A stretch of DNA of 64,000 nt from a virus: positions 1 through 64,000 of the IMG/VR virus record IMGVR_UViG_3300030107_006644. One strand, 5' to 3'. Within the stretch, counting starts at the first letter, position 1; each line of letters begins with the position of its first letter. The position numbers and the translations under genes are program-made. Of the stretch, positions 23,466 to 60,835 are shown piece by piece. The notes under the pieces are model-generated. The model did no database searches. It worked only from the letters and a program-made list of their open reading frames with translations, and was not told the origin of the DNA.

Positions 23466-23520
23466 AATATACTTATTATAAACTATTTATTGTATACTTA
23501 TTGAAGAGAGGAAACCCTCA
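23466..23520 (+). promoter_or_regulatory. AT-rich intergenic region with direct repeat; candidate late promoter
   Basis: This 55-bp gap is one of the longest in the window. It holds a perfect 10-bp direct repeat, TATACTTATT, at 23468-23477 and 23493-23502 (25-bp period). Between the copies lies TATAAACTATTTAT (23477-23490), which partly resembles the T4 late -10 box TATAAATA. A GAGAGG ribosome site follows, and GAGG/CCTC could fold a 4-bp stem over it. It precedes the gp25-like gene and may start a late baseplate transcript. Confidence 0.35.
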
Positions 23521-36500: not shown

Positions 36501-39500
36501 GATGCCTTTACTAAGAGCCACTATATAAGCGAACTATGCGGCGAGCTTCAGGCATACTTTGTGCAGGCTAGAGGCGCATCGACCACATATTATAATTGCG
36601 TAGATGGAGCTACACCGCCCGGCACCGATACAAATGGTGAACCGACCTTCGAGCCGCTAATTCCGCATGCACAATATCACCGTAGACACACAACAAGACT
36701 ATCTTCGTCCTTTCACTCGCTTTCGGGGTACAAGCATGGCATTTCCTCCAATCAGTGGAACTCGGGTTCGCACCCAAGAGGAATCTGGACGCGCGACTCA
36801 ATTGCTGACGCATCCGAATGGCAAACTAGATACGGGCTTGTTGCTGGCTCCTATATGAGCGGAGCCCTTCCATGGCACTTTGTTGATCGTATTGATTCAG
36901 GAATACGGGGACAGTGGCTCTACGGAGGCCAAACCATGTGGGAGGCCGATATACAATCCGGCAAACGACCCGCTTACGATAGTTATGAACAGTTTGCATA
37001 TGAGGATATTAGACTAAAAGGTCAGGAATATTCTACAGTACCAGAGTTTAAAATTAGTGATCATATCGCAAAGTATGTTAGTTTAAGAAATTCTGACTTC
37101 CTATCAGACAACGACACACTGTTTTCGCTTTCCGGCTCAAGTATTCGGGATAGCAGCGAAGACGGGTTTTATACCACCTATAGTCATAGTGATTTTATGA
37201 AGCATTTTGAGGTTATAGCTGGAGATCACGCTGATGTCACTGAAGGCCCATCTGAGTTAAAACTTCGTTGCACTGGAATAAAGAAATTTTTACCATATGA
37301 CGGAGTTTACCCAATGCAGAGAAGCTTGCAGTTGGCAACGCTGTTCTCTAGATCTTATGCAGACAATGTTTATCTCGTAGAGGGCTCGGGCTCTTCACAA
37401 ATTGATTTCGGTGCAGGCTACAGATCGAGCATACATGGTGGTGCCGGCACCGCTGCAGACTACTATGATGAGGATGCAATCAAGCAGGGAGCTTGGTCGG
37501 TATACATGAGGCCTTTCTTCGCCCCCGGTATTTTGTATAACACAGTGAAATCAGGAGTAGCAGTAGACTTTCCAGTTATGACTGGTTCGTTTCATATGAC
37601 TTCTTCTACGCCGTTAGCAATTAGTGGAAAACACGATGGAAGTTCCGGCTCGCCCTCTCACAATTGGGATAGTTACGATATTGACGAGAAAGAAATTTTT
37701 ACAGTCACAACGGATATCATAGCTGAGCCAAGATTTCATGATAGAATACCTTTTGAGGCGATTATCGAGCCCGACAAGCACGTTGTCGGTATGCCAATTG
37801 TTAATATGGAAACTCACGTCTCGGGCGCCGGAAACGTCTATGGACAAGTGAATGGTTGTGCGGAAAACATGGGATCGTATAATCGCACGCTGTCCATTAC
37901 TGCCTCGCTGGCCGCCCCCGGTGGCAATCTTTATAAAATGGCATCAAATAACTTTTTTGCAGAAAGTATCGACTTTTTCCTTCAAGATCGGCGTCTTTCA
38001 GCAATATCCTCTTTGCCTGAAAGCGATCCAAACTTTGGTGTAGTGTCTGAGGCTGATGCTGAGAAAAAGTTTATGGCCTTGGTTAAGATTCGCAAAAGCG
38101 TCGAACGCCAACAGAATTTCAACCCTCTTACTGGTGCTCTCGTCTCTACTGCAGATGGCAAGACATACCCTTATATAAATATGCCTTTGATGACGGATAC
38201 TCCAATCCCGCATCCGTGGACATTATCTAAGGAGACCATCACGATGTATAGCCGTCCTAGCGCTTTCGGCCCGCCGTCCATGGGAATGTGGAGTTCTATT
38301 AGTGGGTACAACATGCCTTATACTCCGCCATATTACGACGGTGCAGCTTGGGCAATTTTAACCTTTAGTCCGGGCGAATACTCCGGCGCTAAAAAATATA
38401 CACTGGACGAGATTCTGGCCGCCACCACAATTGAATATACTAGAACTGGAAAAGTTTATGTAGAGCATGGACCTGATGCATCCGGTAAGGCATTTGGAGC
38501 AACCACTGTTAGCAACTGGCCTTGGTCGCTTCCATGTTCGTATCCGCATGCCCGCGCAACCTTCTCTCTAAGTCACATAACTAACCTACTTGATACCAAT
38601 AGCTCTGGACGGTTTAAGGACTTTGTGGAGATGGTTGATCCTTATCCGCAAGGAAGGACTTTTATAGACGATAATGCAATGCAGATTAGCGCCTCTGTTA
38701 ATCTAATGCAAAAATCTCGCCTTAAAGCGGCAGAGTATAATGCGCTTACAGGAAGAAAGGTTCTGGTGACAGATTCGCCAAACGCAGAACTAGCTACATG
38801 GGTTATCCAAACAAAGTACGAGACTCCAATATTAAACTTTGGAGATGCGGACAAGACCGAAACAAAAACTGTAGCAGGCGATGCGACTAATCTTTGGGGT
38901 AATGAACTTTCCGCCAAGGGCATGTGGCATCAGTACGGAGTTTTACCATCAAGCGATGAGGACGGTATCTTCTTAGAAATTCAAGATGTTCCGAAAAAGT
39001 ATCTTAGAAAAGGAATGGGAATTGAGCCGAACGAGGTAAAATCTTTATGTGATTTGGTAGGATTCTCTACCGAGCCTGTAAAGATTGGTCAGCCGGCCGT
39101 AAGTAGGACCATCTCTGAAGCAGTGGTGGCCGTACCGTTCGTTGAAAAGGATGGAGAAAGGCAGTTCTTTAATGTTCCGCGAAGAACTATCGACTTGGCA
39201 GCTGGTTTGGATGATGTGACGGATGAGGATAGAGAATCCAATACGGTACCGGGAGACAGCATAGTCGACATGGTTGATAAGATGAACAAGTTTGTATTTC
39301 CTCCGACTATGAATTTCTTACTATATGACTCCATTGAGCCCTTCGCGATGTATATTTTTGAATTTACGCACGAGCTTTCCCAAATGGATCTTACCGACAT
39401 GTGGCAAAATCTCATGCCAGAAATTGGTCGTACCTTTGAAGAGCAAACTGTAGAGGTATCACATCCGTTGTTCTCTAACGAGGTTATGGGGTGTGAAGCG

Positions 39501-39830
39501 CTACTGAGCGGCCAAAAGGTTCAAAAAGAACTTCAATGGATGGTCTTCAAGGTCAAACAAAAGGCAAAGACAAACTATTACGAAAAGGTAATTGGTTCTG
39601 ATCTTGAAAAATATGACTTCCTGCAGATAAAACCGGGAGTGTTGAGTAAGCGCAACAATTCTTCATCTGGCTATAGTTATAACTGGCCGTATGACTATTT
39701 CTCACTAGTCGAGTTGGTCAAGATAGATTCGGAAGTTACGTTTGGGGCGATTCCGGAACCAGACGCGGTAAAGGAAAGTATAAAGGTGCGGGATTTAGCA
39801 GAATTGGTAAAATTAGAAGAGGATGAATAG
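27552..39830 (+). CDS. Giant virion protein, 4092 aa, with LamG-like domains and an internal duplication
   Basis: This single 12.3-kb frame encodes 4092 residues. Parts that can be seen: an N-terminal segment with IYGTTPIEMKNFVRYGSAKR; a LamG/concanavalin-like domain at about residues 190-380 (VTVEFWLKK); a helical region with KGTEKAFRNLIRCFGVDEK near 610-640, like tail wedge proteins of marine phages; two copies of a Thr/Ala-rich beta domain at about 811-944 and 1818-1951; a second LamG-like domain at about 2045-2440 (FAFSTWLKPLG, EWTHLVVVYVP); and a C-terminal region (LQWMVFKVKQKAK) that recurs in marine phage tail proteins. Most likely it is an elongated baseplate or fibre protein that binds glycans. 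It has no enzyme motif I recognise. Confidence 0.75.
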   Translation: MSVKKLFDKAKKTRPVVKKPNKRLHVDVESEDFMEAKAATQERYDPHVIYGTTPIEMKNFVRYGSAKRYFEDAFSRIYTTYPYDGSLKEKEEWSQTSTPLDRYIFDNVYPRTNGYIRISSAGWGALGANGITVGYGHPSTLEYVTFYGGPTTGSATNLMKHFDLQDRGVGSNIYESYSELSSSTGGEVGLGTRESNLKFDVEDFGVTVEFWLKKTAFTTAKTEKEVIFDLWNGETPATDGYGRLRIEIDGTATGSPFLVSCQSGSSAGFSNEVVGTGLTTTTLQDWSHYAVSLKADTSTNKIRTRLYVNGVLNQEQSLGTAMGEVTGSLIANIGALRGATTSATVGTVAEGYGKLSGSLDEFRYWKAERGIKEVGRHWFKQYAGGTNTDLSNTTLGVYYKFNEGCTGTASVDQTVLDYSGRLTNGHWVGYPGCTARCVDSAMVLAGAAEREFKDPILYSFHSDVATKKETISKNAKAYDDNNSSSIYSTIPNWILEFQENNTANDLEYLTQIMASEFDKLHQQISALSRVRDSSYLSSTQTSIPFTDKMLTERGMPAADIFENADLLAKIMGRSESQEYESDIVDIKNRIYHSIYNNLSNIFKSKGTEKAFRNLIRCFGVDEKLLKLNIYGDNATYKLTDNAKIVAKKRRYANFYSSGSDDATVVQQTASSNANSVSYITGSNNSLYEPYSGMTVEAEVHFPKKKSASDEGYFAVTYHTASLFGMHTVGDDPADFTFLTDDYANLQVYALRDASDNKSARFMLTSSSPFPIPEIITDLYKDVYEDQTWNLSVRLRPSKYPISDMVHGAEAVAATATITTVAEASINDTKDFTLTDAAGTTTTYNFSTGLATTDNNVAYTPGGQDGRGPAGTITIGVLGTTTAADIRDEIITRINAGTSIGFAASASGDNVLVTQNTAGTAGNTSITEPAGATGLTLPSTFTGGLGAAHPFKVEFHGLRLIAGEVIDEFLLTSSATHASGSLFLQSSKRLYMGAHLTNYTGSVIQRSDTRSSGLRYWPIYLGPGEDPSVLSRTKDEFKNRVKDIDNYGTSYVYRNAGFLQDSLKDIEVPFVETLALNWNFSELSSSNAAGEFTVEDESSGSSDLLNRYKWVSNLVERQHTGRGYKFAASSTDVIDIMYVNSYAPQLPETISSSDMVNILTQDDDIFTREHRPVNYYFAIEKSMYQTISEEILNMFASIVDFNNLIGDPVNRYRQEYKDLGKLRQLFFERIGNTPELDKYVEFYKWIDSGINEMLEALIPASVNSSDGARTMVESHVLERNKYWNKFPTIEMVGDPPAVGLRGITEMLYPWKFGHANPGDVDSTVATIENERCFWWRERAERTTPANTSGDSTIDTQREGIRDVVGKHRDESRTLSHNAGTTYAGQTYALNRFSRPYRFDVDEVKEIHGGVNYRKGKDLDFSRTATHHHGEDNPVGFPVNVILYEDSNASVLEKQSKDPWFDMAGNTEGRQATCTDQEDEWPRSKNKVSYHAFILKNQEYSPPPWPPSMPKEDDGNTYFSSLKGDWASPFSLYETTEEVAATGYHKDINDRFRAKTTITNLHEDSYGDNERPVQGPFTDAHVGGRQNRHIILNKGEDTYVDRPEAWKLLMGPDLASCGHPFISPTDAYKLGLVGPDYPHPLPYSPGVKPSTWRPRANYLRDGTAKRPVNIQNIKHDTGSSILGNYDKDYQVVSIPGRQINNRALIKSGGFEPIIEDSFYFAETLSEYRKPERLRSEHVFVTRFSAPGAPEAAGDHRGGFGLDYNSGEFSSYSSMNYRNLILRGGGRWPDGIRELLTNHTRQFGYFSDQMNLSNGAAAAAVAATATITTVVEASINDTKDFTLTDAAGTTTTYNFSTGLATTDNNVAYIPGGSDGRGPSGTITIGLLGTTTAADVRDEIITRINAGTSIGFTASASGDNVLVTQNTVGPAGNTSITEPAGATGLTLPSAFTGGWGMSRASSVNAFDYSGQPNYHKTNRNTGYRLNNMLSCSNETRNWNNWCLYFHYDDERNTGDVESNYDQWVTIPGRRGLGGSQGTFDNLLNGMQPFAFSTWLKPLGSKYNYTVPGSSPAVNVPHSNKKRVILNLGDASQTAIARTATQGDRTDFVGATLATQDAERIFNFQIHLEPADNKVAIIAPFSMGYGHWTVTGTSTDHRIKDNEWTHLVVVYVPDSSLADVALDPTEAKLDTYTGTTSGVTDRTQQPEDTLQIGDDPISWGASSIDKSSDTPTAHTNLMAGTSGQGSVDAQEEQEIRSMGWKGDTKLSTFYKGMAAIDVAVDKMQKVESRALEGATPLIKVYMNGVLVASLDLATGVNTGFFLNRMPYGTSIPTVGSAFLGRGPTAIRDLTPWPEDHPDYVQLGVQGQAAPTEWSYYGLMDETSFWVKGRATDASIEPLMQQDVTQIYQNADGSRGPNNLNAFRPKSRGALISWYRFHDQEPPHVSRFDRITGYGQLNHLPNQINDNKDWGLSRFHAYTSPTYPNAAVHRPIRGGFSASTDLPGEQYINEYCTPVTSAYYDNWYVTHEIPRSTAQYTWISQSCERDASGSALDELGNAVWHHPPPHGKVHVHDPTSEDYLKQYNAISFTIESHVGSAYSTATGKRHWNDSAGNGSHTRESVAAVAALRDFIPQSFAQLNTNLYESLNVSTQALGLNQDESDFINDDVVNFGANDSGGSAVLNGLVLKRQGPYGWPSWKQIRGSEHPVVRRHLKNSSVLSIVQPPEEKYLYSGSAVIGSYFGLPRGDNFVQYTEPAIAYKKPMVHVLQDSIVLMHAYSNAIDKFSNQNINNFLNLRTDEPCAYTNLVEEYTGEDPTLKFNYLRYHEPVYPKQVNRYRNIIRSRPNYATSFYQSGRSNRKPILWAPEDPMGQLDWKIRNTETPVLVDTIINVTNSQGYTMIHAAKWATNIGGAAATVGHMAGYITGSIGAHSIWPMDARGDFHTITNVLGESSVPDLAVREAGYPIREYVGCTSANTTPGNYPLWSGSCDSDAFTKSHYISELCGELQAYFVQARGASTTYYNCVDGATPPGTDTNGEPTFEPLIPHAQYHRRHTTRLSSSFHSLSGYKHGISSNQWNSGSHPRGIWTRDSIADASEWQTRYGLVAGSYMSGALPWHFVDRIDSGIRGQWLYGGQTMWEADIQSGKRPAYDSYEQFAYEDIRLKGQEYSTVPEFKISDHIAKYVSLRNSDFLSDNDTLFSLSGSSIRDSSEDGFYTTYSHSDFMKHFEVIAGDHADVTEGPSELKLRCTGIKKFLPYDGVYPMQRSLQLATLFSRSYADNVYLVEGSGSSQIDFGAGYRSSIHGGAGTAADYYDEDAIKQGAWSVYMRPFFAPGILYNTVKSGVAVDFPVMTGSFHMTSSTPLAISGKHDGSSGSPSHNWDSYDIDEKEIFTVTTDIIAEPRFHDRIPFEAIIEPDKHVVGMPIVNMETHVSGAGNVYGQVNGCAENMGSYNRTLSITASLAAPGGNLYKMASNNFFAESIDFFLQDRRLSAISSLPESDPNFGVVSEADAEKKFMALVKIRKSVERQQNFNPLTGALVSTADGKTYPYINMPLMTDTPIPHPWTLSKETITMYSRPSAFGPPSMGMWSSISGYNMPYTPPYYDGAAWAILTFSPGEYSGAKKYTLDEILAATTIEYTRTGKVYVEHGPDASGKAFGATTVSNWPWSLPCSYPHARATFSLSHITNLLDTNSSGRFKDFVEMVDPYPQGRTFIDDNAMQISASVNLMQKSRLKAAEYNALTGRKVLVTDSPNAELATWVIQTKYETPILNFGDADKTETKTVAGDATNLWGNELSAKGMWHQYGVLPSSDEDGIFLEIQDVPKKYLRKGMGIEPNEVKSLCDLVGFSTEPVKIGQPAVSRTISEAVVAVPFVEKDGERQFFNVPRRTIDLAAGLDDVTDEDRESNTVPGDSIVDMVDKMNKFVFPPTMNFLLYDSIEPFAMYIFEFTHELSQMDLTDMWQNLMPEIGRTFEEQTVEVSHPLFSNEVMGCEALLSGQKVQKELQWMVFKVKQKAKTNYYEKVIGSDLEKYDFLQIKPGVLSKRNNSSSGYSYNWPYDYFSLVELVKIDSEVTFGAIPEPDAVKESIKVRDLAELVKLEEDE
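29981..30383 (+). repeat. Intragenic duplicated domain, copy 1
   Basis: About 403 bp of the giant gene recur 3021 bp downstream (exactly 1007 codons, so in frame) with only scattered, mostly silent changes. The encoded domain begins ATATITTV, contains DTKDFTLTDAAGTTTTYNFS and VLVTQNTAGTAGNTSI, and ends GLTLPSTFTGG. It matches a beta-rich module common in phage structural proteins. Confidence 0.9.
33002..33404 (+). repeat. Intragenic duplicated domain, copy 2
   Basis: Second copy of the domain at 29981-30383. Differences include IPGGSDGRGPSG versus TPGGQDGRGPAG and NTVGPAGNT versus NTAGTAGNT. The high nucleotide similarity points to a recent duplication or gene conversion rather than ancient divergence. 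Confidence 0.9.
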
Positions 39831-51209: not shown

Positions 51210-52142
51210 ATGATGAAAAAATTAAAAATTATTGAGCAGGTTTTAGGACAGTCAAGAAAGGTGAATGACGAGCAATTGTTCTTTTGCCCATACTGCTCTC
51301 ATCCTAAAAGAAAGCTCTCGGTAAACGTAGAGAAGAATGTTTTCAAATGTTGGGTTTGCGATTCGCATGGCCGAGACATTAGAAGGATGATTCGCAAATT
51401 TGGCACAATCAGCCAGCGAGAGGCTTGGGACGAGCTTACAAACCGCGTAGATATAACGGACTTTTCCAGCATTTTCGATGAGAAGCTTGAGGAACCCGAA
51501 GCCGTGACTGGGTTGCCGCAAGAGTTTAGATCCTTAGCAAACAAATCCACTCCGATTAGTGCGCTTCATGCAATACGGTATTTGCGGGAAAGAGATATCA
51601 CAAAAGAAGATATAGTTTTTTGGAAGATCGGTTATTGTAATAGTGGTGAGTATGGAGAGCGTATCGTAATACCCAGTTTTAATAACTCTGGCTATGTAAA
51701 CTATTTTGTAGCCAGAAGTTATACAAAGTATCAGGCAAGATACAAGAATCCGCCAGTATCAAGGGATATCTGTTTTAATGAGCTTTATATCGACTGGGAT
51801 AAAGACTTGGTTATCACGGAAGGGATCTTTGATGCGATTAAAGCTGGCCCAAACTCCGTACCGCTTTTAGGCTCAACACTTAGAGAAAATTCAAAGTTGT
51901 TCCAAAAAATTGTTACTCGCGATACTCCCGTATATATGGCTCTAGACGCAGACGCCAGCAAGAAAGAGAGTAGGATTATTAACCTTTTTCTTAAATACGA
52001 TATTGAAGTTTATAAGATAGACACATCAGGGGTCGACGATGTTGGTTCCATGACTCGCGAGCAGTTCCAGAGGAGAAAAGAAAAAGCAACCTTTATCCCT
52101 TCAGGCGACTATTTATTGAAGACGGCGTTATATAATTTATAA
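51210..52142 (+). CDS. DnaG/T4 gp61-like DNA primase
   Basis: This 310-residue protein has an N-terminal zinc-binding domain (Cys-26, Cys-29, Cys-47, Cys-50 in FCPYCSHP and FKCWVCDSHG). A TOPRIM-type catalytic core follows, with Glu-204 in LVITEGIFDAIKAG and Asp-246/Asp-248 in ALDADAS. This is the layout of phage primases, shorter than bacterial DnaG. It would make RNA primers for lagging-strand synthesis. A promoter (51175-51203) lies immediately upstream, and the start is one of two adjacent ATGs (51210, 51213) with no leader space for a Shine-Dalgarno site. Confidence 0.85.
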   Translation: MMKKLKIIEQVLGQSRKVNDEQLFFCPYCSHPKRKLSVNVEKNVFKCWVCDSHGRDIRRMIRKFGTISQREAWDELTNRVDITDFSSIFDEKLEEPEAVTGLPQEFRSLANKSTPISALHAIRYLRERDITKEDIVFWKIGYCNSGEYGERIVIPSFNNSGYVNYFVARSYTKYQARYKNPPVSRDICFNELYIDWDKDLVITEGIFDAIKAGPNSVPLLGSTLRENSKLFQKIVTRDTPVYMALDADASKKESRIINLFLKYDIEVYKIDTSGVDDVGSMTREQFQRRKEKATFIPSGDYLLKTALYNL

Positions 52143-52162: not shown

Positions 52163-54220
52163 ATGTCAAGGTGGGGCAAACCAACCAAAAACAAAAGAAG
52201 AACTGATCCCCGATATCACTTAGAAGAAACTGTCGAAAAAGATGACAAGCGGGAGATTTTGCAAGAGCAACCCTCCGGCCTGCGAACTATGGGCAATGTA
52301 GACTCTTCTCAGTTTGTCGGTCCAACTCCGGGCGATCTGATTGATTTCGCCCAGCCACTTGCCGGCCCAGCCAATATGCAAACCGGAGAAGGCATGGCGT
52401 CTCAATACTTATACAATCCGATTTATGATATTGTGAGCAGTACGCCATTCGCCGGGCGCCAACACGCCCTCCAACGCCAAGCAGCCGCAGCGGCCGCCTT
52501 AGATCCTACAAACGTGCCCCCTATGCCAAGAAACGTGAGGACACATCCACCTCCAGCCCAAGCCCCTAACCGCTGGTATTCATCCAACAAGCTGCTCAAC
52601 CCCCGCTCAACGGGCCAAGCCATTGGCAGCCGTCTTCTGAGATGGGGAGGTCCAGCTGTTGGATACCTGCCTCAAGGCGTGATGTTGGCCGGCCAGTATC
52701 AAGGGATGGGAGCCGCAGAGGATGAAATGCATCGACTCGGCCTGCAGAGTAGTTTTATACAACACGGCGGCTATCAGCGACAAATTGATGCGAACCGTGA
52801 CGCACTCGCCGGCATGCCAACTGATACCGAAGAACAGAGGCAAGCGAGGGCAAGACAGGCCGGAATCGTCCAACAACAGCAGAATGCGCTCGACGCAAGA
52901 AATGCAGCAATTGAAGATCTGGCGTGGACCGGTGCATCTGTCGGCGCCACCGGCTACGGTATCGGCGTAGGTCAAGGCCCGCTTGCTAGGGGTGGCCAAA
53001 CAATTGCCAATCGAGGCTATTCTACAGCACTCGGCCGCGTATTTTCGGGAGGAGGAAATCCAGCCTTCAGAACCGGCGCCCAGCGCGCTCTGCCATGGCT
53101 CGGCCGCGCTGCTACCCGTGTAGCACTCCCGCTTGCTGCTGCCCAAGGCTTTGTAGATCTTGGACGAGCCGGCTACGAAGCCGGCGCCGCTTATGGAGCA
53201 CCTTGGGGAGACAGCAGCGAAGCCATCGGCTGGACAAATCCGGGGCAAATGGCCCAAGAAACAATTCTCCACAGCACCCTCGGCGGTGAGGATATATTAG
53301 ATAGAGATCCACGAGACGATAATGAAGCCCTTGCTAGAATTCGAGCCGCAGAAACAGAAGCCGGCCTTAGCACCGGCGACCACATTCGAAATTGGCGTCA
53401 ACACCAGTCAGAATATGAGCGCGATCACGGCGCCATGCCTGAGTACGAATTTGTGCCCGATCCGGAGACGCAAAGGCTTGTTCCTACTGCCGATTCCCGC
53501 AGAGCCCGCCACGATGCGCAGAGAAATGTCTATGCCAGACAGCACGGCTTTAATGATTGGGAGCAGGCAGCTGAAAGCGACACGGCGATGGGTAGACAAA
53601 TTAGGAGAACACGCGCAAGAGCTTCTCAGATGCGAGGCGAGGATCATGATTCTGGAGCACTCACGGGTGATATTGGATTTGATCGCGCCGGCGAACTCGG
53701 CTCACTAAACTTAGATGAGGGCAAAAGTAGAAAGGAGCAAAGATTGCTAATGGAAAATCAATATTCTAAAATGCAAAGATTAGCGGGGATCAAAAAGAAA
53801 AAGCCTCGCCTTAATGAGGATTTGCTAGGCCTTGTCTTATTCGCAGCTGCAAACGCTGCAGCTATCTATGCTGCGGTTGGCCGCCACAATTTGGCCATGG
53901 GCGAACTCGGTGCCGGTGAACCCCCATTGGCAAAAAAATGGGAAGAAACAAAGAGAGAAGCAGAGCAGAGTAATGCTCCTCTGCACGATATGCTTAAGGG
54001 AATCGAAGATATGGCAGAAAGTCAATCCGGACAGCTAACTCCACAACAGTATCAGCAGTTAGCTCAAGCTTTCGGAAATGATCCGGTTCTTATCGACATG
54101 CTAGATCAGTTTGATCGCGAGCAACTATATCCCGATGAAGCTAAACAATTGATTGATCAGATGGATCGTTACGTGCGATCTAAAATACAAGAATTACCCG
54201 ATGAGGGAGAAGAGGTTTAA
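52163..54220 (+). CDS. Unrecognised Ala/Gly-rich protein, 685 aa (candidate internal protein)
   Basis: I do not recognise a fold. The first 60 residues are charged (KKRRTDPRYHLEE-like). Residues about 150-370 are Ala/Gly/Arg-rich with many aromatic residues and a stretch of weakly hydrophobic helices (LPWLGRAATRVALPLAAAQ), resembling ejected or internal virion proteins. Near residue 530 the sequence reads MENQYSKMQRLAGIKKKKPR followed by LNEDLL, a pattern (LAGI, then LNE) that recurs in this cassette and includes a hydrophobic-X-Glu site. The last 120 residues are helical. An in-frame ATG at 53750 follows AAAGGAG by 12 bp and could start a shorter C-terminal product. Confidence 0.55.
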   Translation: MSRWGKPTKNKRRTDPRYHLEETVEKDDKREILQEQPSGLRTMGNVDSSQFVGPTPGDLIDFAQPLAGPANMQTGEGMASQYLYNPIYDIVSSTPFAGRQHALQRQAAAAAALDPTNVPPMPRNVRTHPPPAQAPNRWYSSNKLLNPRSTGQAIGSRLLRWGGPAVGYLPQGVMLAGQYQGMGAAEDEMHRLGLQSSFIQHGGYQRQIDANRDALAGMPTDTEEQRQARARQAGIVQQQQNALDARNAAIEDLAWTGASVGATGYGIGVGQGPLARGGQTIANRGYSTALGRVFSGGGNPAFRTGAQRALPWLGRAATRVALPLAAAQGFVDLGRAGYEAGAAYGAPWGDSSEAIGWTNPGQMAQETILHSTLGGEDILDRDPRDDNEALARIRAAETEAGLSTGDHIRNWRQHQSEYERDHGAMPEYEFVPDPETQRLVPTADSRRARHDAQRNVYARQHGFNDWEQAAESDTAMGRQIRRTRARASQMRGEDHDSGALTGDIGFDRAGELGSLNLDEGKSRKEQRLLMENQYSKMQRLAGIKKKKPRLNEDLLGLVLFAAANAAAIYAAVGRHNLAMGELGAGEPPLAKKWEETKREAEQSNAPLHDMLKGIEDMAESQSGQLTPQQYQQLAQAFGNDPVLIDMLDQFDREQLYPDEAKQLIDQMDRYVRSKIQELPDEGEEV

Positions 54221-54221
54221 T

Positions 54222-55265
54222 ATGAGTGATTTTGATTTTATAGACCATTATGCGGAAGAAGAAGAAGCGGTAAATGAAAATATGCTGCCTGAAAACAGCG
54301 TTGTTTCTTCTTTGAATTGCGCAGTAATTGGTGTGGGAGGTGGAGGCGGAAAAATGGCCAAAGCCTTCCTTGAATTAGGGTTTAACAAGACCTTATTGGT
54401 GAATACTACATCCAAGGACATTCCTGAAGGAGTTGACGAACAACATGTTGTGTTGATTCCTGAAGCAGATGGTATTGGAAAGGATGTCGATCTTGGAAAA
54501 GCCGTATTTGAGGCAAATAGTGCCGTTGTCGAAGACGCCCTTAGAACGAAGCTGGGCCGCGTTGACTGGTTGTTTGTATGTGCAGGCGGAGGAGGAGGTA
54601 CAGGAAGCGCTGTGGCGTCCTTAAACGATGTTTTTGACCGCTATTTAAGCTCGGTACAAGCTGAAGGCCGCGTAATCTATGTGGTTTCTTGGCCAACGGC
54701 TCAAGAATGTCTCAACCCGACAATTAGCAAGAACGCATTATCTTTGGTGAATGATGTTTCGGAGCTTCCGCACGTTGTTTTGGATAATGAGAGGCAAGTT
54801 AAACTTCTGAGAGGAAAGGTTGGCATGCTAGGTATGTATCCTTTGGCCAATTCGTCTTTTGCAAAATTGTTAAGTCAAGTATTAAAGCTTTCATCCGAAC
54901 AATCTCCAATCCAATCGTTTGATTCAAAGGATCTGGAAAGGTGTCTCCGAACTGAAAAGAGAATGTTCGTGGGTTCGACCATGATTCAGAATCCAGCAAC
55001 ACCTAACTTGGGCTCGATGATTCTTCAGAATTGCCTGAAGCGTTCCCCGTGCCCTGCGCCACAAGGAAAACCATCGACTGGCTCGCTATTACTAGTTGTA
55101 AATTCGCAGATGGCAGGCGATCCTGAGATCAGCGCGCACCTAGACGCAGCAATTTCTTACGTCGGAGGAAGAACAGATACACTTTTTTCTGGAGTTTATA
55201 TAAATGAAAGTGTCCCCGGGCTAGTTGCGATACTACTTATGAATGGGTTGGAGAGTGGTCAATAA
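54222..55265 (+). CDS. FtsZ/tubulin-like GTPase
   Basis: The start is ATG 54222, one base after the upstream TAA and behind GAGGGAGAAGAGG. The 347-residue product has both FtsZ/tubulin domains. The GTPase domain shows the T1 loop VIGVGGGGGK (residues 35-44), T3 NTTSKD (61-66), the tubulin signature GGGGGTGS (122-129) and the T6-like VVLDNERQV. A T7-like region contains QSFDSKDLERC (231-241), where FtsZ has NxDFAD. The C-terminal domain has SLLLVVNSQMAGDPEISAHL and TLFSGVYINE, matching FtsZ's VNITG...E and IFG...DE. It lacks the long C-terminal tail that binds FtsA/ZipA. It probably forms filaments, perhaps to position capsids or DNA; FtsZ interference is the alternative. Confidence 0.85.
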   Translation: MSDFDFIDHYAEEEEAVNENMLPENSVVSSLNCAVIGVGGGGGKMAKAFLELGFNKTLLVNTTSKDIPEGVDEQHVVLIPEADGIGKDVDLGKAVFEANSAVVEDALRTKLGRVDWLFVCAGGGGGTGSAVASLNDVFDRYLSSVQAEGRVIYVVSWPTAQECLNPTISKNALSLVNDVSELPHVVLDNERQVKLLRGKVGMLGMYPLANSSFAKLLSQVLKLSSEQSPIQSFDSKDLERCLRTEKRMFVGSTMIQNPATPNLGSMILQNCLKRSPCPAPQGKPSTGSLLLVVNSQMAGDPEISAHLDAAISYVGGRTDTLFSGVYINESVPGLVAILLMNGLESGQ

Positions 55266-55266
55266 A

Positions 55267-55623
55267 ATGAAAGAGAAAACGCTTGAACAAATAATCAGAG
55301 AAGAGCTTGGTAAATTCACAGAAGCAATCAGGTTTGGCTCTAGAGGAGAAGCTGAGGCTTATGGAGGCGACCAAACTGTCGTCCATGAGCCGGGAGACGA
55401 CGAGGGTGGATCCGCTGATCCGTCCGCTGGTCTAAGTGTTGATCGCAGTCCTGCAGAAGAGGCTGTCGAAGACAAGATCTATGATTTAGTTGATGCAATC
55501 AAGCAAATGGGTAAATCAAACCCAGACATGACAGACACCTATATTTACTTATTTAGAGCCCTGCAGCAAGCGGGAGTTAACGTTAGCAGTGTTGCAGTGT
55601 TAGCAGAAGGGAGAAGAAAATGA
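55267..55623 (+). CDS. Tagged acidic protein, 118 aa (capsid-targeting-like N-terminus)
   Basis: The start is ATG 55267, right after the FtsZ-like gene's TAA. The N-terminus MKEKTLEQIIREELGKF is an amphipathic helix ending in I-R-E-E, the pattern shared by most proteins of this cassette (see findings). The body is acidic and Gly/Ser/Asp-rich up to about residue 68, followed by a helical C-terminal half (EDKIYDLVDAIKQ). No known domain. It sits between the tubulin-like gene and the cysteine microprotein and overlaps the latter (ATGA). Confidence 0.65.
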   Translation: MKEKTLEQIIREELGKFTEAIRFGSRGEAEAYGGDQTVVHEPGDDEGGSADPSAGLSVDRSPAEEAVEDKIYDLVDAIKQMGKSNPDMTDTYIYLFRALQQAGVNVSSVAVLAEGRRK

Positions 55624-55724
55624 AGAAAGTATTACACAAATTAGCAAACCTATTTAATAGTGACCATTGTTGTTGCTGCTGCGGTTGTTGTAGTTGCGAC
55701 AACTGTTCGGGAGCATGTAAATGA
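55620..55724 (+). CDS. Cysteine-rich microprotein, 34 aa
   Basis: A 34-codon gene, easily missed by length filters. It starts at ATG 55620 inside the upstream stop (ATGA) and its own TGA overlaps the next ATG (55721), with AAGGGAG 6 bp before the start. The peptide has a helical basic N-terminus (MKKVLHKLANLFNSDH) followed by an 18-residue tail containing ten cysteines (17-21, 23, 24, 26, 29, 33). No stable fold is expected without metal or disulfide. Metal binding (metallothionein-like), membrane or protein attachment through thiols, or a redox role are possible. The double overlap argues that it is a real, translated gene. Confidence 0.7.
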   Translation: MKKVLHKLANLFNSDHCCCCCGCCSCDNCSGACK

Positions 55725-57235
55725 AATTAACCAGAAAACAACTTGAACAACAGGTTAGAGAGGCTCTTAAAAAGAGAACTCTTAATGAGAACGAACCACC
55801 CGCTGGGGAAGAGTCCGGTGCAGGATCCAGCCTCTTCGGTGATGGCAATACCTTCTTGGGCATGGAGCCCGATGAAGTGGCCACTGACATGGGCACCCCG
55901 GATGCCACCTTTAATGTTCAGGGCCTAGGGCAAGAACAGGGAGAATTCTTCACCGGCGCCACAGAGCCCAATCCCGCCGGCGGAGGATCATCGGGATTCG
56001 TCCGGACCTTCGATGATCGCGACCTAGCCGCGCAAGCACCAGCCGGTAATCTTAATCAACGCGCAAGAGCAGCCAGACGGTCTGGCGAATTGGTCAGTTA
56101 TGACGAACTGCCGATCAGCACTTCCGCGTATCGAACAGATCCGGAAACTGGCGATATTCGCGTTACGCGCGGGAAGTTCAGGGGCGCCCGTGTTGATCCT
56201 GCCACGATGCCGGGTAATGTGGCCCCGACTGTGCGAGTGACACCACAGGCGCAGGCCAGAAGAGATGCGGCTCGCCGCATTGCCCACGGTAGTTATCAGA
56301 CGCAACAAGGTTCTGGCCGCATTAATGAGGATAATGAGGATGACTACATGTCGCAAAAGACCTTTCCGGCGTTCTCGGCCCTCCCGGGAGAACAAAAACT
56401 CCCCGGCGAGAGCATTGTGGATCCACAAACAGGCGCCACATGGAGCACCGGGAATATCGGAGGAATCGAGCAGTGGATCGGCGGTGAAGGAAACACGGAC
56501 GAGGAAAAGGCTCAGTGGGAAAGGGAGAGGACATCAGATGCATCAGACGAGGCACTCTATCCGACCTCGCCCGCAAAAGTAGAAGATTCGAAACCAAGAC
56601 GCACCAGCCTCGCAGACAAGATTATGAACCCAGATCCCTTGGGCCACTTGCAAGAACGAAGAGAGGCCATGCAACGCAGACGAAGCCGCGTATCTCTTCC
56701 TCCTAAAACTCCCGCTATGCAGGCTATATACGAGAGGGCTGCAATGGGAGATCATCGCCTTAGATTCATGTTTGAGCATGCAGTCGCCGGAAACGCAAAG
56801 GCGCAGCAGTTTCTTAACGCTTTGGCTGAAACTCTTACCAAGAGTCAAATTCTAAAGGAGCAAGAAGCAGCACCTGAACCACCTCACGATTCCGGCCCTC
56901 CAAAAACCGACGAAGGTCTCAATATTGACGCGCTGGTTGAAGAATTGGAGTCGGTGGATGAGGGCATTGGCGCGTGGGCAATGAATAAAGCCGGCCTGAT
57001 TAGCGACGAGGATTACGCAAATCTTACCGCCGAATGGGGCAGACAACGCGCCGCCAAGCGAACGTTAGGAACCAGCGGGTCTGATATAAAGCTGGGCACT
57101 GGCAGAAAAAGCCAGATGGATCAAATCGACTGGAACCCGAAGCGAAAAGACGAGCTTAACGAATCCCAAGATCCCCTTAAGAGAATGCGAGATCTTGCAT
57201 TAAAATCATACGGGAGCTACAAGTATGAAGATTGA
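55721..57235 (+). CDS. Tagged low-complexity protein, 504 aa
   Basis: The N-terminus MKLTRKQLEQQVREALKKR is the shared amphipathic tag, ending V-R-E-A, followed by LNENE. The body (about residues 20-320) is Gly/Pro/Arg/Asp-rich, disordered and without a recognised domain. Residues about 320-385 form helices (LQERREAMQRRRSRVSLPPK and FMFEHAVAGNAKAQQFLN). The C-terminus is helical and ends LKSYGSYKYED. High charge and disorder are typical of scaffolding or internal proteins. It is preceded by CGGGAG inside the microprotein gene and overlaps the next gene by 11 bp. Confidence 0.6.
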   Translation: MKLTRKQLEQQVREALKKRTLNENEPPAGEESGAGSSLFGDGNTFLGMEPDEVATDMGTPDATFNVQGLGQEQGEFFTGATEPNPAGGGSSGFVRTFDDRDLAAQAPAGNLNQRARAARRSGELVSYDELPISTSAYRTDPETGDIRVTRGKFRGARVDPATMPGNVAPTVRVTPQAQARRDAARRIAHGSYQTQQGSGRINEDNEDDYMSQKTFPAFSALPGEQKLPGESIVDPQTGATWSTGNIGGIEQWIGGEGNTDEEKAQWERERTSDASDEALYPTSPAKVEDSKPRRTSLADKIMNPDPLGHLQERREAMQRRRSRVSLPPKTPAMQAIYERAAMGDHRLRFMFEHAVAGNAKAQQFLNALAETLTKSQILKEQEAAPEPPHDSGPPKTDEGLNIDALVEELESVDEGIGAWAMNKAGLISDEDYANLTAEWGRQRAAKRTLGTSGSDIKLGTGRKSQMDQIDWNPKRKDELNESQDPLKRMRDLALKSYGSYKYED

Positions 57236-57485
57236 TAGGAAGACATTGATGCGGATCCTTAGAGAAGAGCTATCTACCCACTATTCGCAAGATCTTAAAG
57301 AAGAGACGGATGCGAGCGGCATGTCAAAGAAAATGCACGATGCCTTAGAAGATGCTTCTGGTACAGCAAACATGGACACCGACATGGATACATCAGGCCT
57401 TCAATCAGACGGCGTTAGTTTGGATGAAGGACTCACAAGATTAATTCAATTAGCTGGCATAAGGAGCGCAAAAGATGAAGGTTAG
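57225..57485 (+). CDS. Tagged small acidic protein, 86 aa
   Basis: The tag MKIDRKTLMRILREELSTHY ends I-L-R-E-E. The middle is Met/Asp/Ser/Thr-rich (MDTDMDTSG), and the last 20 residues hold a helix, LTRLIQLAGI, whose LAGI motif also appears in the 685-residue protein. It overlaps the preceding gene by 11 bp and the next by 11 bp. No function is recognised. Confidence 0.6.
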   Translation: MKIDRKTLMRILREELSTHYSQDLKEETDASGMSKKMHDALEDASGTANMDTDMDTSGLQSDGVSLDEGLTRLIQLAGIRSAKDEG

Positions 57486-57879
57486 CAAAAAGCAATTTAA
57501 AGGTTTAGTTGCCGAAGCGTTAAAGACCGTTTTGGAGATTGAAGAGCCGCCATTTAGAACGGGGCTGAGCAAGGCCGACTGGGAAGGCCCGGGCGATCCC
57601 CGTGGTGCCGGCGCAGATCTTGATGTTTTCCCGGAAACTGAAGCTGAGAAGCTGGGAGATCGGATCGCCGCAGCTATGGAAGCTGGAATTAGAAATGTTT
57701 TAATGAGCCACTTGGGCGACCAAGAAGGCTTAACAGTATACGATAAGTATTTAGCCGATGTCGATGATGATATTCTGAGTATTGCTATGCACATGCGCGA
57801 TGCCGCGATGGACATGGTAGGAGAACCAGAAGGAATCACTGGCGACGAAGAAGACGAAGATTTACAGGAGGAATGGTAA
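57475..57879 (+). CDS. Tagged helical protein, 134 aa
   Basis: The N-terminus MKVSKKQFKGLVAEALKTVL carries the tag pattern with the V-A-E-A end. The rest consists of an acidic linker with an EEPPFR segment, then a helical domain (residues about 60-115: EKLGDRIAAAMEAGIRNVL, later DDILSIAMHMRDAAMDM) and a very acidic tail. It overlaps the next gene by one base at the preferred start. The function is unknown. Confidence 0.6.
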   Translation: MKVSKKQFKGLVAEALKTVLEIEEPPFRTGLSKADWEGPGDPRGAGADLDVFPETEAEKLGDRIAAAMEAGIRNVLMSHLGDQEGLTVYDKYLADVDDDILSIAMHMRDAAMDMVGEPEGITGDEEDEDLQEEW

Positions 57880-58247
57880 TGCAAATAACCATCAAAAGAC
57901 TAAAAGAGATCATTAAAGAAGAGGTGGATTATTTCAACCAACTTCTCACAGAGCAGGGTCCGCCCCCCGGCGGCGGTATGCCGCCCGGAGCACCCCCTGT
58001 TGGAGGCCCTCCCCCCGGGATGGGTCCACCCCCCGGAGGCCCGCCTCCCGGCATGGGAGCCGCACCCGGAGGTCCGCCTCCCGGTGGAATGCCCCCCGGA
58101 GGCCCACCCTCCGGACCACCCGGCGGAGATCCCATTCAGGGTGCTATCGCAGCCCTTGAGGGTGGTGACGCCGCTTCAGCCCTTCAGATCCTTAAGTCGT
58201 TAGCTGGCCCACCCGCCGGCGGCGGTATGCCACCCGGCATGGGATAA
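57879..58247 (+). CDS. Tagged Pro-Gly repeat protein, 122 aa
   Basis: The start is taken as ATG 57879, 7 bp after AGGAGG; a second ATG at 57873 is too close to that site. The tag MQITIKRLKEIIKEEVDYF ends I-I-K-E-E. It is followed by about 65 residues of PPGGG/PPGGM-type repeats (residues about 29-85), giving a flexible, collagen-like segment, then a short helical end. The repeat is GC rich and reads as Pro/Gly on both strands, so the overlapping minus-strand frame is an artefact. Flexible linkers of this type occur in internal and scaffolding proteins. Confidence 0.65.
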   Translation: MQITIKRLKEIIKEEVDYFNQLLTEQGPPPGGGMPPGAPPVGGPPPGMGPPPGGPPPGMGAAPGGPPPGGMPPGGPPSGPPGGDPIQGAIAALEGGDAASALQILKSLAGPPAGGGMPPGMG

Positions 58248-58251
58248 ACAT

Positions 58252-58266
58252 AGAGCATGAAGCTCT
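58252..58266 (+). promoter_or_regulatory. Small hairpin presenting the start codon
   Basis: AGAGC (58252-58256) and GCTCT (58262-58266) form a 5-bp stem with ATGAA as the loop, placing the ATG of the next gene (58257) in the loop. No T-tract follows, so it is not an intrinsic terminator. It may aid or restrict ribosome access, since the upstream region has no strong Shine-Dalgarno site. A 5-bp stem can arise by chance. Confidence 0.3.
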
Positions 58267-58886
58267 TATTTGAAAACTGGCGTAAATTCCTAAAAGAAGA
58301 AAAATGGGAAGATTTCGACACCAATAAGGGCGAGTGGACTAATCTTTCTGCTAGCGATATTGAAGCTGCTAAAGATCCGGCAAATGTAGATATTACAGAC
58401 GAATTGCTGGCCCTAATAGACAATGCTTATAAAGATATTGGTGGAAATTTCGACTTCAGAAACCCCGGCGATATCCCCGGAGATGCTGATTTTTGGCTAG
58501 CGGTTGATTTGGACGACGATCCAGAGCCCGATGCAGTCAGGGTGGGCAAAACTAAGCCTGCAGGGCTTAAATTATCTGCTTCTGGTCATGATGGCTCTAG
58601 ACCGGCAATTGAGGCATTCAAGCAAAAGACCTCAGAATTATTAAGTACGCCCGGGCACTATGGTGAGATGTCAAAAGCCGCCGCACATGTGATGATTAAA
58701 TATTTTCAAGTGCCATTTGTCGCAGATCCAGAAATCGTGCAGAAAGTGCTGGGGCCCTCTAAACCTATTAAGTGGCTCGGACCACATCCAGAGGGTAAAT
58801 ATCCCGGATATGATGGTTGGTATACGAGAACCATTTCAGGTCACGAAGATGAAATGAAAATTATGCTGGGTACCCCCAACGCATAA
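58257..58886 (+). CDS. Tagged protein with conserved phage domain (possibly GNAT-like), 209 aa
   Basis: The N-terminus MKLLFENWRKFLKEEKWE closely parallels the T4 capsid-targeting leader (MKTYQEFIAE) and ends in F-L-K-E-E. The body contains DITDELLALIDNAYKDIGG, DADFWLAVDLDDDPEPDAVR, a SGHDGSRPA loop and GWYTRTISGHEDEMKIM. I recall this block as a conserved domain of T4-like phages with a possible acetyltransferase-like fold, but the annotation is a recollection and not shown by motif. It may be an internal enzyme delivered with DNA. Confidence 0.6.
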   Translation: MKLLFENWRKFLKEEKWEDFDTNKGEWTNLSASDIEAAKDPANVDITDELLALIDNAYKDIGGNFDFRNPGDIPGDADFWLAVDLDDDPEPDAVRVGKTKPAGLKLSASGHDGSRPAIEAFKQKTSELLSTPGHYGEMSKAAAHVMIKYFQVPFVADPEIVQKVLGPSKPIKWLGPHPEGKYPGYDGWYTRTISGHEDEMKIMLGTPNA

Positions 58887-58891
58887 TTTAC

Positions 58892-58920
58892 TTGCTTTCT
58901 CTATCCAAGTAGGTTATACT
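58892..58920 (+). promoter_or_regulatory. Sigma70-type promoter with overlapping dyad
   Basis: TTGCTT (58892-58897) and TATACT (58915-58920) are separated by 17 bp. The -10 overlaps a short inverted repeat, TATAC-N5-GTATA (58915-58929), which could bind a dimeric regulator. A good AGGAG site (58928-58932) precedes the ATG at 58939. This fits an early or middle promoter driving the hydrolase gene. Confidence 0.5.
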
Positions 58921-58938
58921 AATGGTATAGGAGTTAAC

Positions 58939-59400
58939 ATGAAAATAATGTTTTTGCACGGCTTAGAATCTAAACCCGGTGGTTCAAAGCCAACATATCT
59001 ATCATATCACGGGCACACAGTTCTAAACCCTTCACTGCCGAAAGACAGTTGGGATGACAGTGTAAAAATTGCCAGAGCCTTATTCGAACAGGAGCTACCA
59101 GATGTGGTTGTGGGCTCCTCAAGGGGAGGAGCAGTGGCAATAGCGGCTCGCTTGTCTGTGCCTAAGCTCGTGTTGGTCGCACCAGCTTGGGCCAAATATT
59201 GTCCGTGGGGAACAATTCCTTCTACGGCGACAATTTTACACTCTAAAAGCGATGATATTGTTCCGTACTCTGATAGCGAGCTTTTAGCCCACACGTTTGG
59301 CGCCGAACTAATTGAGACCGGCGCCGACCATCGCATGAATGATGAGTTCGCATTAGAAAAAATGCTTGAGGTAATAAATAGAGGTCAAAATTTGTCATAA
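58939..59400 (+). CDS. Alpha/beta hydrolase, YqiA-like
   Basis: This 153-residue protein has the compact alpha/beta-hydrolase layout: FLHGLESKPGG near the N-terminus (oxyanion region), the nucleophile elbow G-S-S-R-G with Ser-61, a probable acid in SKSDDIVP (Asp-105 or 106) and His-131 in GADHRMND. Size and motifs resemble the YqiA/UPF0227 esterase group, which has no lid domain. The substrate is unknown. Its own promoter and ribosome site, and the lack of a tag, separate it from the internal-protein-like neighbours. Confidence 0.78.
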   Translation: MKIMFLHGLESKPGGSKPTYLSYHGHTVLNPSLPKDSWDDSVKIARALFEQELPDVVVGSSRGGAVAIAARLSVPKLVLVAPAWAKYCPWGTIPSTATILHSKSDDIVPYSDSELLAHTFGAELIETGADHRMNDEFALEKMLEVINRGQNLS

Positions 59401-59438
59401 AGGTTTATTTCTATCTATTTATAAGGTGAGGAATAAAA

Positions 59439-60197
59439 ATGCCGTTTGAATCGGAAAAGCAGCGAAGATGGATGCATGCCAATGAGCCAGAAATGGCCAA
59501 AAGGTGGGAAAAGAAGGAAGAAGCTCTCAAGCAAGAGGGGGGTGGACCAACTGCTGCCACTATTCGCATGCCGGCCGAAAAAATTACCGCTACAGGATCC
59601 GGCACTCCAGATTGGGAACAGGCATTTTTAGAGTACGAGTCTGCAGAACAGGATACGCGCCAATTTCCCGACCCCGGGCTTTTGCAACGCCTAGAAGATG
59701 TTGTTGGTGAAGACTGGCGAGAAGATTACGATGAGTGGAAAGAGCATCCTCACCGCGCTGAGCCGCTGAAACCAAGCCAGCCCGGCCCATTAATATCAGA
59801 GGAGGACAGTGGGATGAAAATTAAAGGTTTAGAACTTAAGCAAATGGTAAAAGAGGCCCTTTTGAGTGAAATGGGTTGCGGAGGCGGTCACCATGGCCAC
59901 GGCCATGAACAACCCTCTATGGGAGGAATGAATGATCTCCTTGCACTTGGCGGAGGCCAAAGTCAAACGCCTCTTATTATTATTCAGACATCTGAAGAAG
60001 AGCAGGAAGGACCAGCGGTAACTCACCCAACTCACATTAGGCACAAGCAGCAAGCACCAGAAGTAAGCGGCCTTGAACAACTTATTCCGATGCTCCTTCA
60101 GCTTGAAGGGCAGGTAGTGTCCTTTTCAAGCAGAGAGTTGGAATCGCACGTTAAGCGCAGTTTAAAAAGGATCTTAAGAGAGAGAAAACGCAGATGA
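59439..60197 (+). CDS. Two-part protein: small phage domain plus tagged segment with internal start
   Basis: The first 60 or so residues (MPFESEKQRRWMHANEPEMA onwards) match a small, free-standing protein often seen in phages. From Met-126 the sequence continues MKIKGLELKQMVKEALLSEM, the same amphipathic tag (ending V-K-E-A) as its neighbours, then a His/Gly-rich stretch (CGGGHHGHGHE), a short Ile-rich strand and a basic C-terminus (LKRILRERKRR). At 59798-59804 AGAGGAGG lies 9 bp before that ATG (59814), so a second product of 127 residues could be made. This gene may encode both a full-length and a tagged shorter protein. Confidence 0.65.
   Translation: MPFESEKQRRWMHANEPEMAKRWEKKEEALKQEGGGPTAATIRMPAEKITATGSGTPDWEQAFLEYESAEQDTRQFPDPGLLQRLEDVVGEDWREDYDEWKEHPHRAEPLKPSQPGPLISEEDSGMKIKGLELKQMVKEALLSEMGCGGGHHGHGHEQPSMGGMNDLLALGGGQSQTPLIIIQTSEEEQEGPAVTHPTHIRHKQQAPEVSGLEQLIPMLLQLEGQVVSFSSRELESHVKRSLKRILRERKRR
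59798..59816 (+). promoter_or_regulatory. Internal ribosome-binding site and in-frame start
   Basis: AGAGGAGG followed by 9 bp and ATG 59814, in frame with the 252-residue gene. The context is as strong as that of most annotated starts in the window, and translation from here would begin exactly at the tag MKIKGLELKQMVKEALL. Confidence 0.5.
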
Positions 60198-60835
60198 AGT
60201 TGTTGCTTGAAAAGTGGAAGCAGTACGCAGAAGCAGTGCGTGATGGGTTTACAATGGGTAGCCAAGCCGGCAGTATACCCGCTTCTACTGGAATGGGCAT
60301 CATGAAGAAGGAAGATGACGAGGATGATAAAATAGAAGAAGGCTGGGAAGATTATGTCACCGATATAGCCATGGCCGCCCCTGATATCGCAGGCTCAGTT
60401 TACGACAGTTATATTGCCAAACCAATCAATACTGCTTCCCGCCATTACACCGGTCAAAATGTCGCGCCCGTATATGCCGGCGGTGCTAGGGAACCGATAG
60501 AGGCTGCCTACGAAGGCGGACTTGACTTGGCCACTCAAGCGGCCACAGCCCCCCTGCGCGCGGCCAGTACAGTGACGGACTGGGCGAGCAATCTTGTGAA
60601 CGAACATAACGATGAAATGTACGATCTAACAAAAGGTGAACGACCTCCTCCTCATTCTACAGGCGATGTTACCAGAAAGGATCCCGATGCGGACACAGAA
60701 GCAAGCATGACTCCCAACTATGAAGTTGAGGTCGAGCAGCTTGTTTTCGATATGTTGATGTCCGGAATGTCCGAGCAAGAAATCATGAGTATGATTGAAG
60801 AATATGTGCAAGACGCCGCATCATATGCAAAATAA
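60194..60835 (+). CDS. Tagged acidic protein, 213 aa
   Basis: The N-terminus MKLLLEKWKQYAEAVRDGF is the second form of the tag (MKLL-x-E-x-W), sharing MKLL and the Trp position with the 209-residue protein upstream, and ends Y-A-E-A. The body is Ala/Gly/Thr-rich with many acidic residues and an amphipathic helix near the end (EQLVFDMLMSGMSEQEIMSM). The start overlaps the preceding TGA (ATGA). No known domain. It is the last gene of the tagged cassette. Confidence 0.6.
   Translation: MKLLLEKWKQYAEAVRDGFTMGSQAGSIPASTGMGIMKKEDDEDDKIEEGWEDYVTDIAMAAPDIAGSVYDSYIAKPINTASRHYTGQNVAPVYAGGAREPIEAAYEGGLDLATQAATAPLRAASTVTDWASNLVNEHNDEMYDLTKGERPPPHSTGDVTRKDPDADTEASMTPNYEVEVEQLVFDMLMSGMSEQEIMSMIEEYVQDAASYAK

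Follow-up and report, generated by a model that had tools for sequence, protein, structure and literature searches.

In phage T4, the head protease gp21 cuts after L/I-X-E, and propeptides of 10-19 residues direct the internal proteins to the core (PMC9026906). In phiKZ-like giant phages (SPN3US, phiKZ, 201phi2-1), a prohead protease cuts many head proteins after Glu, and these are packed with the DNA (PMC9026906, PMC10052503). Here we consider a group of genes in the IMG/VR virus record IMGVR_UViG_3300030107_006644 whose proteins begin with short amphipathic tags ending in hydrophobic-x-Glu. The window analysed comprises the first 64 kb of this record, which runs to 205,517 bases in all and belongs to a marine, T4-like myovirus. 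We consider it quite probable that the tags are N-terminal capsid-targeting propeptides, the tagged proteins being packed in the head and cut by a gp21-type protease.

The resemblance to T4 IPI, IPII, IPIII and Alt lies in the short putative propeptide ending in L/I-x-Glu, the gp21-type protease and the unrelatedness of the mature proteins; those of T4 are packaged at the prohead stage (PMC9026906), as we infer for the present set. The tag was compared with the propeptide of the T4 internal proteins in its general pattern. Differences from T4 include two new tag sequences of at least 14 residues, a larger number of carriers (about 14-19 here and, in one relative, as many as 28, against about four in T4) and, as far as can be read from sequence, interchangeable tags, a cargo rich in enzymes and the use of internal starts for some tags. 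Every defining feature of T4 capsid targeting that is open to sequence comparison was found, and the tag system may well operate in the same manner. Propeptides of the phiKZ-like phages, in contrast, are mostly of 111-254 residues with the motif S/A-x-E, whereas short tags common to unrelated proteins are seen here. We did not find phiKZ-type head genes with long S/A-x-Glu propeptides in this phage, the capsid protein being Gp23 and the protease of gp21 type.

Among the cultured phages of the collection searched, the Flavobacterium phage vB_FspM_immuto is the closest in its capsid (45% identity). Like the phage studied here, it has a gp21-type protease; several of its own proteins have MKKSQLRQIIKEAL- or MENFDLKKFLVENKLT-like beginnings. 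These tags, related but not identical to ours, stand on proteins annotated as hypothetical.

Two classes of tag

Two sequence classes were recognised: class A, MKLLxENWRxFLxE, and class B, MKITxxxLxxIIxEE, the latter formula being the commonest form elsewhere and class B being more varied in this record. To avoid circularity, position-specific scoring matrices were built solely from the tags of other phages, with thresholds of at least 10 (class A) and at least 12 (class B). A strict class-B profile proved too narrow for the variants in this genome, and a matrix with pseudocounts was therefore used. Among the N-termini of the 217 genes called in the whole record, seven tag-A and five tag-B matches were obtained, against about none in shuffled N-termini. 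Class A is represented at 58257, 60194, 115009, 118354, 118988, 120372, 121453 and 145682, and more weakly at 122424, 150907 and 152942; class B at 55721, 57225, 57475, 57879, 59814 and 177451, and more weakly at 55267 and 187973. The record holds at least 14 tagged genes (about 14-19), of which the following lie in the window:

55267 to 55623, plus strand: tagged gene, 118 amino acids, disordered/acidic body; tag MKEKTLEQIIRE (E follows) at 55267-55302
55721 to 57235, plus strand: tagged gene, class B, 504 amino acids, low-complexity body; tag MKLTRKQLEQQVRE (A follows) at 55721-55762
57225 to 57485, plus strand: tagged gene, class B, 86 amino acids; tag MKIDRKTLMRILRE (E follows) at 57225-57266; tag-B score 22.1
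57475 to 57879, plus strand: tagged gene, class B, 134 amino acids; tag MKVSKKQFKGLVAE (A follows) at 57475-57516; tag-B score 12.4
57879 to 58247, plus strand: tagged gene, class B; tag MQITIKRLKEIIKE (E follows) at 57879-57920; tag-B score 30.4
58257 to 58886, plus strand: tagged gene, class A, 209 amino acids, folded domain; tag MKLLFENWRKFLKE (E follows) at 58257-58298; tag-A score 43.4
59439 to 60197, plus strand: gene with an internal class-B tag; tag MKIKGLELKQMVKE (A follows) at 59814-59855
60194 to 60835, plus strand: tagged gene, class A, 213 amino acids; tag MKLLLEKWKQYAE (A follows) at 60194-60232; tag-A score 22.7

All eight tags were found on the plus strand where the preliminary description had placed them, and all terminate in hydrophobic-x-Glu as it had claimed. 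The internal start that it proposed within the 59439 gene also stood, the tag at 59814 being preceded by a strong GAGGAGG ribosome site at proper spacing; internal tag-B scores in this gene are 16.6 and 11.8, and its C-terminus has a tag-like helix too. The range it gave, 52163-60835, does contain the eight tags, but the first gene, at 52163, has none at its N-terminus, and the tagged set extends beyond eight to further members at 115-123, 145-154, 177 and 188 kb of the record. A random occurrence of such segments in the phage proteome, the outcome that would have spoken against the proposal, is contradicted by the excess of whole tags over chance in the matrix searches.

Individual members vary in how they match. 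The 55267 protein, with a predicted cut before E13, reaches 7.5 bits on the tag-B profile at its N-terminus, while the tag-B score of 19.5 at 55721 was reached in none of 200 shuffled proteomes. A homologue of the 57475 protein (L303) bears a MKITTDRLRQIIKEEL tag, the 57879 protein has a second possible site at LLTE/Q (a slash marks a cut site, a predicted one outside T4), and the tag at 60194 is common to 118988 of the same record. The AlphaFold2 model of the 58257 protein has a helix at residues 2-17, the tag, at low pLDDT, and a separate domain from about residue 20 for which Foldseek indicated a weak GNAT-like fold. In the family of this protein (seven sequences, three tag types), Arg9 and Glu14 are the only invariant tag residues.

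The tags are strongly amphipathic: the mean helical moment of the first 13 residues is 0.53 in tagged proteins and 0.27 in others (p = 9e-9). Tag length is 13-22 residues, with a hydrophobic P3. By itself, a hydrophobic-hydrophobic-x-Glu motif near the N-terminus is mildly enriched (39 genes versus 23.2 +/- 4.5 in shuffles), and the strength of the signal therefore resides in the entire 14-residue tag. Among 157 class-A tags, Glu14 is present in 133 and Asn7 in 128, both positions having been left free in the search pattern; L or I stands at position 12 in 134.

Common N-termini could also arise as DNA-level repeats, or as a translation-start cassette spread by recombination, with no function in the protein. 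The tags do coincide exactly with the starts of small genes arranged in strings, and codon identity exceeds expectation in some relatives. In this genome, however, synonymous codon agreement inside the tags is 0.59 versus 0.61 expected, and 0.62 versus 0.63; codons are chosen near-independently, and selection therefore acts on the peptide. The persistence of Arg9 and Glu14 in tags whose other residues have changed, as well as the occurrence of internal class-B tags, likewise speaks against a repeat, to which we give hardly any credence.

Head protease and capsid protein

A prohead protease and a matching site in the capsid gene, which the preliminary description proposed to look for, are both represented. 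The gene at 72634-73254 encodes a gp21-type protease (phrog_207 at 8e-51) in which the catalytic motifs GELDHP and GISSRG align with GELNHP and GVSSRG of T4 gp21. In Gp23, the sequence LLRE/A is aligned with the T4 site FLTE/A; the corresponding sequence in the capsid protein of immuto is IVSE/A, and 80 of 80 fetched relatives retain LL[RK]E at this position. The capsid propeptide MARLLENQAKELLRE scores 7.1 on the class-A matrix, which suggests that class A may imitate the end of the capsid propeptide. Other head and tail genes of the record are those for a baseplate wedge, the large terminase and a T4-type portal.

Tags as exchangeable modules

As the preliminary description had stated, the tags precede bodies that are unrelated to one another: 150 class-A proteins fall into 91 clusters and 171 class-B proteins into 151 (about 240 bodies), and an alignment of 84 class-A proteins has a consensus in the tag alone. 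Nine body clusters have both tag-A and tag-B members, from different phages, and 43 have both matrix-tagged and untagged members. In the clearest junction at the predicted scissile Glu, MKLLLENWRKFLNE (ending KFLNE) precedes GGNVF in one protein while M alone precedes GGNVF in immuto. A second clear case sets KYMKE before NIDLDIKVGD and RRIIAE before AIDLDIEKGD. In other exchange pairs the alignment enters the tag or begins later, so that the limit of the module is not sharp in every case. The Glu was retained in 16 of 22 exchanges, compared with roughly one in three for most other tag positions; in two further exchanges a start Met stands in place of the tag. Judged by these alignments, the tag is an exchangeable module on many unrelated proteins.

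Putative cargo proteins

Tagged proteins of this record include a NUDIX domain protein, protein kinase-like and nucleotidyltransferase-like proteins and one containing an M23 peptidase; a structure model of the kinase was of too poor a quality and was not used. Among the 84 class-A proteins of relatives, single members matched zeta-toxin/AAA kinases, RNase T, GDSL hydrolase and HD families, as well as LigT, tRNA-ligase phosphodiesterase, SAM lyase, GNAT and nucleotidase families; further matches were to polynucleotide kinase and DNA methyltransferase families. Many of these family matches are weak, but such cargo would suit host takeover or counter-defence at infection. The bodies had been described as disordered or Gly/Pro-rich, which applies to a part of the set only, the 58257 protein and many cargo proteins of relatives being folded enzymes.

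That some or all tagged proteins form the prohead core, or scaffold, and are degraded and lost like T4 gp22, gp67 and gp68, is on the whole unlikely, but several points speak in its favour. The body of the 57879 protein is 61% G+P and resembles the Pro-rich part of a scaffold candidate at 86327, and the 57225 protein ends in LIQLAGI, resembling the C-terminus of the same candidate (LAGI motif). A small protein at 73251, following the protease gene, has a tag-like N-terminus; T4 gp67 contains a similar DLIKEEKIAIARNFLIEGEE stretch; and a number of the bodies are short and acidic and seem to be disordered. Against this, folded enzymes (NUDIX, protein kinase, nucleotidase, GNAT-like) are numerous among the tagged proteins of the record and of relatives, which would not be expected of a scaffold, and some 240 unrelated bodies are too many for a core. 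Some of the disordered or low-complexity window members may nevertheless be scaffold-core components instead of cargo.

Two large late proteins with tag-A-like N-termini, at 115009-117645 and 145682-150910 of the record, have in common a Cys/His region (DILRMSD...SCH...CAVAEAxGHG). The former has relatives in 29 fetched loci, many starting MLxDEQIL, and the latter additionally carries an M23 peptidase domain.

Distribution among relatives

Both tags also begin proteins in hundreds of relatives. Scans of IMG/VR with degenerate DNA patterns gave at least 120 stretches for each tag, while a control scan with the class-A codons in scrambled order gave five. The matrices gave 10, 28, 17 and 9 matches in four large relatives, and about 0.1-0.2 after shuffling. 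In 28 large tagged contigs, Gp23 was found in 20 and the protease in 19. Nine contigs chosen by capsid similarity yielded 15 tags, distributed over five of them, and neither tag pattern occurred in 21 random contigs. A tblastn search with the 20-residue tag gave chance matches only, searching phage records at the DNA level with the region gave no match, and our literature search encountered the tag strings in no paper. Other tag types ending in hydrophobic-x-Glu were seen in relatives (L269:1832-2503, L318:4265-4930 and L423): a MRLLREYIREMLTE-like type, and the MENFDLKKFLVENKLT-like type of immuto.

The distribution also bears on a further idea, raised in the preliminary description, that the tag sends proteins to another phage compartment or to the tubulin-like filament. 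A phage nucleus would be a further destination of this kind. An FtsZ/tubulin-like GTPase gene (54222-55265, plus strand) adjoins the tagged cluster, the longer frame from 54153 matching the Pfam Tubulin family at 1.8e-7, slightly below the curated cut-off; a tblastn search of phage records with this protein gave no match. Of 18 tag-bearing genomes, 10 have a tubulin match. The remaining eight, one of them with 28 tag matches, have none, and targeting to a tubulin filament is therefore unlikely. Moreover, the Glu motif with which the tag ends is also that of the capsid processing site, and this phage has a Gp23-type capsid, unlike known nucleus-forming phages. We regard the compartment idea as very improbable.

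Late-type promoters and neighbouring genes

Throughout the record, a late-type element, ACTA[TC]TTA(T) or CTATTTAT, was counted 55 times on the coding strand, as opposed to five times on the other. The T4 late promoter TATAAATA was rejected as that of this phage, with three occurrences on the coding strand versus 18, ACTA[TC]TTA having been found instead. The elements near the cluster, and one untagged gene behind such an element, are:

52108 to 52116, plus strand: late-type promoter-like element ACTATTTAT, upstream of 52163
52163 to 54220, plus strand: late gene without N-terminal tag, possible companion; late-type promoter at 52108
55232 to 55240, plus strand: late-type promoter-like element ACTACTTAT, upstream of the tagged cluster (55267)
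59414 to 59421, plus strand: late-type promoter-like element CTATTTAT, upstream of 59439

Residues 514-675 of the 52163 protein are homologous to the C-terminal module of the tagged protein 118988. The nearest upstream promoter is of late type for all 19 of 19 tagged genes and for all checked head and tail genes, while seven of the eight metabolism genes checked lie behind TTGACA-type promoters (Fisher p = 0.0016).

A further late-type element lies in the window at 23482. Within the tagged cluster, 58939-59400 (plus strand) encodes an untagged alpha/beta hydrolase (Abhydrolase_6, UPF0227). Giant proteins of 2,792 and 4,092 residues are encoded at 15087-23465 and 27552-39830; Pfam and PHROG gave no match for the first, which has a weak tag-like helix at its N-terminus (KLRELIEETM). 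At 156-167 kb of the record (G000:C1), about 15 small proteins start with M(K/Q)VGDLV or similar and often terminate in NESR or NASR. Several are preceded by a GCTATATTAT element, and they constitute an expanded family.

Proposed mechanism and implications

We propose that the amphipathic helix of 14 residues (sometimes about 22 in class B) would bind, presumably, the scaffold core or the propeptides of the capsid and in this way carry its protein into the prohead. The gp21-type protease would then cut after the Glu of hydrophobic-hydrophobic-x-Glu, as predicted for the capsid protein, and the mature protein would be freed inside the head and ejected from it along with the DNA. The protease, the Gp23 site, the junctions at Glu, the late-type promoters and the absence of tags from random contigs all support the capsid cargo that the preliminary description had envisaged.

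Several considerations weigh against capsid targeting. Firstly, our literature search returned no virion proteomics, cleavage or packaging experiment for this phage or its relatives, immuto included. Secondly, the promoter test is weakened because adjacent genes have promoters in common. Thirdly, the class-B cut position is uncertain because a second L-x-Glu site is frequent in these tags at about residue 22. Lastly, tags and Gp23 do not always coincide. Eight of the 28 large tagged contigs have no Gp23 match; all eight are of 125 kb or less and three have a T4-type portal, and fragmentation is the likely explanation. Conversely, four of the nine capsid-selected contigs have no exact pattern match, and the tag patterns are missing from the six random-set contigs that have Gp23, most of which score much higher for Gp23. 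The exact tags therefore mark a subgroup of T4-like phages.

For that group, which is mainly marine, we lean slightly towards a broader interpretation, in which interchangeable tags serve as a general delivery system for dozens of takeover or counter-defence enzymes per lineage. The delivered set would, with the same narrow preference on our part, comprise RNA-repair-like, SAM lyase-like and methyltransferase-like proteins, zeta-type and protein kinases, GNAT and NUDIX proteins, and a free movement of tags between genes and between phages, which this interpretation includes, seems to us marginally the better supposition. If true, these phages bring a large, swappable stock of enzymes into the cell along with their DNA. 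A tag that can be recognised would allow a simple N-terminal search to predict virion cargo among many phage genes now called hypothetical, and would make testable which enzymes enter at infection, ahead of any transcription. The tag could likewise point to anti-defence proteins in abundant marine phages, and the interchangeable tags are candidate signals with which to load foreign proteins into phage heads.

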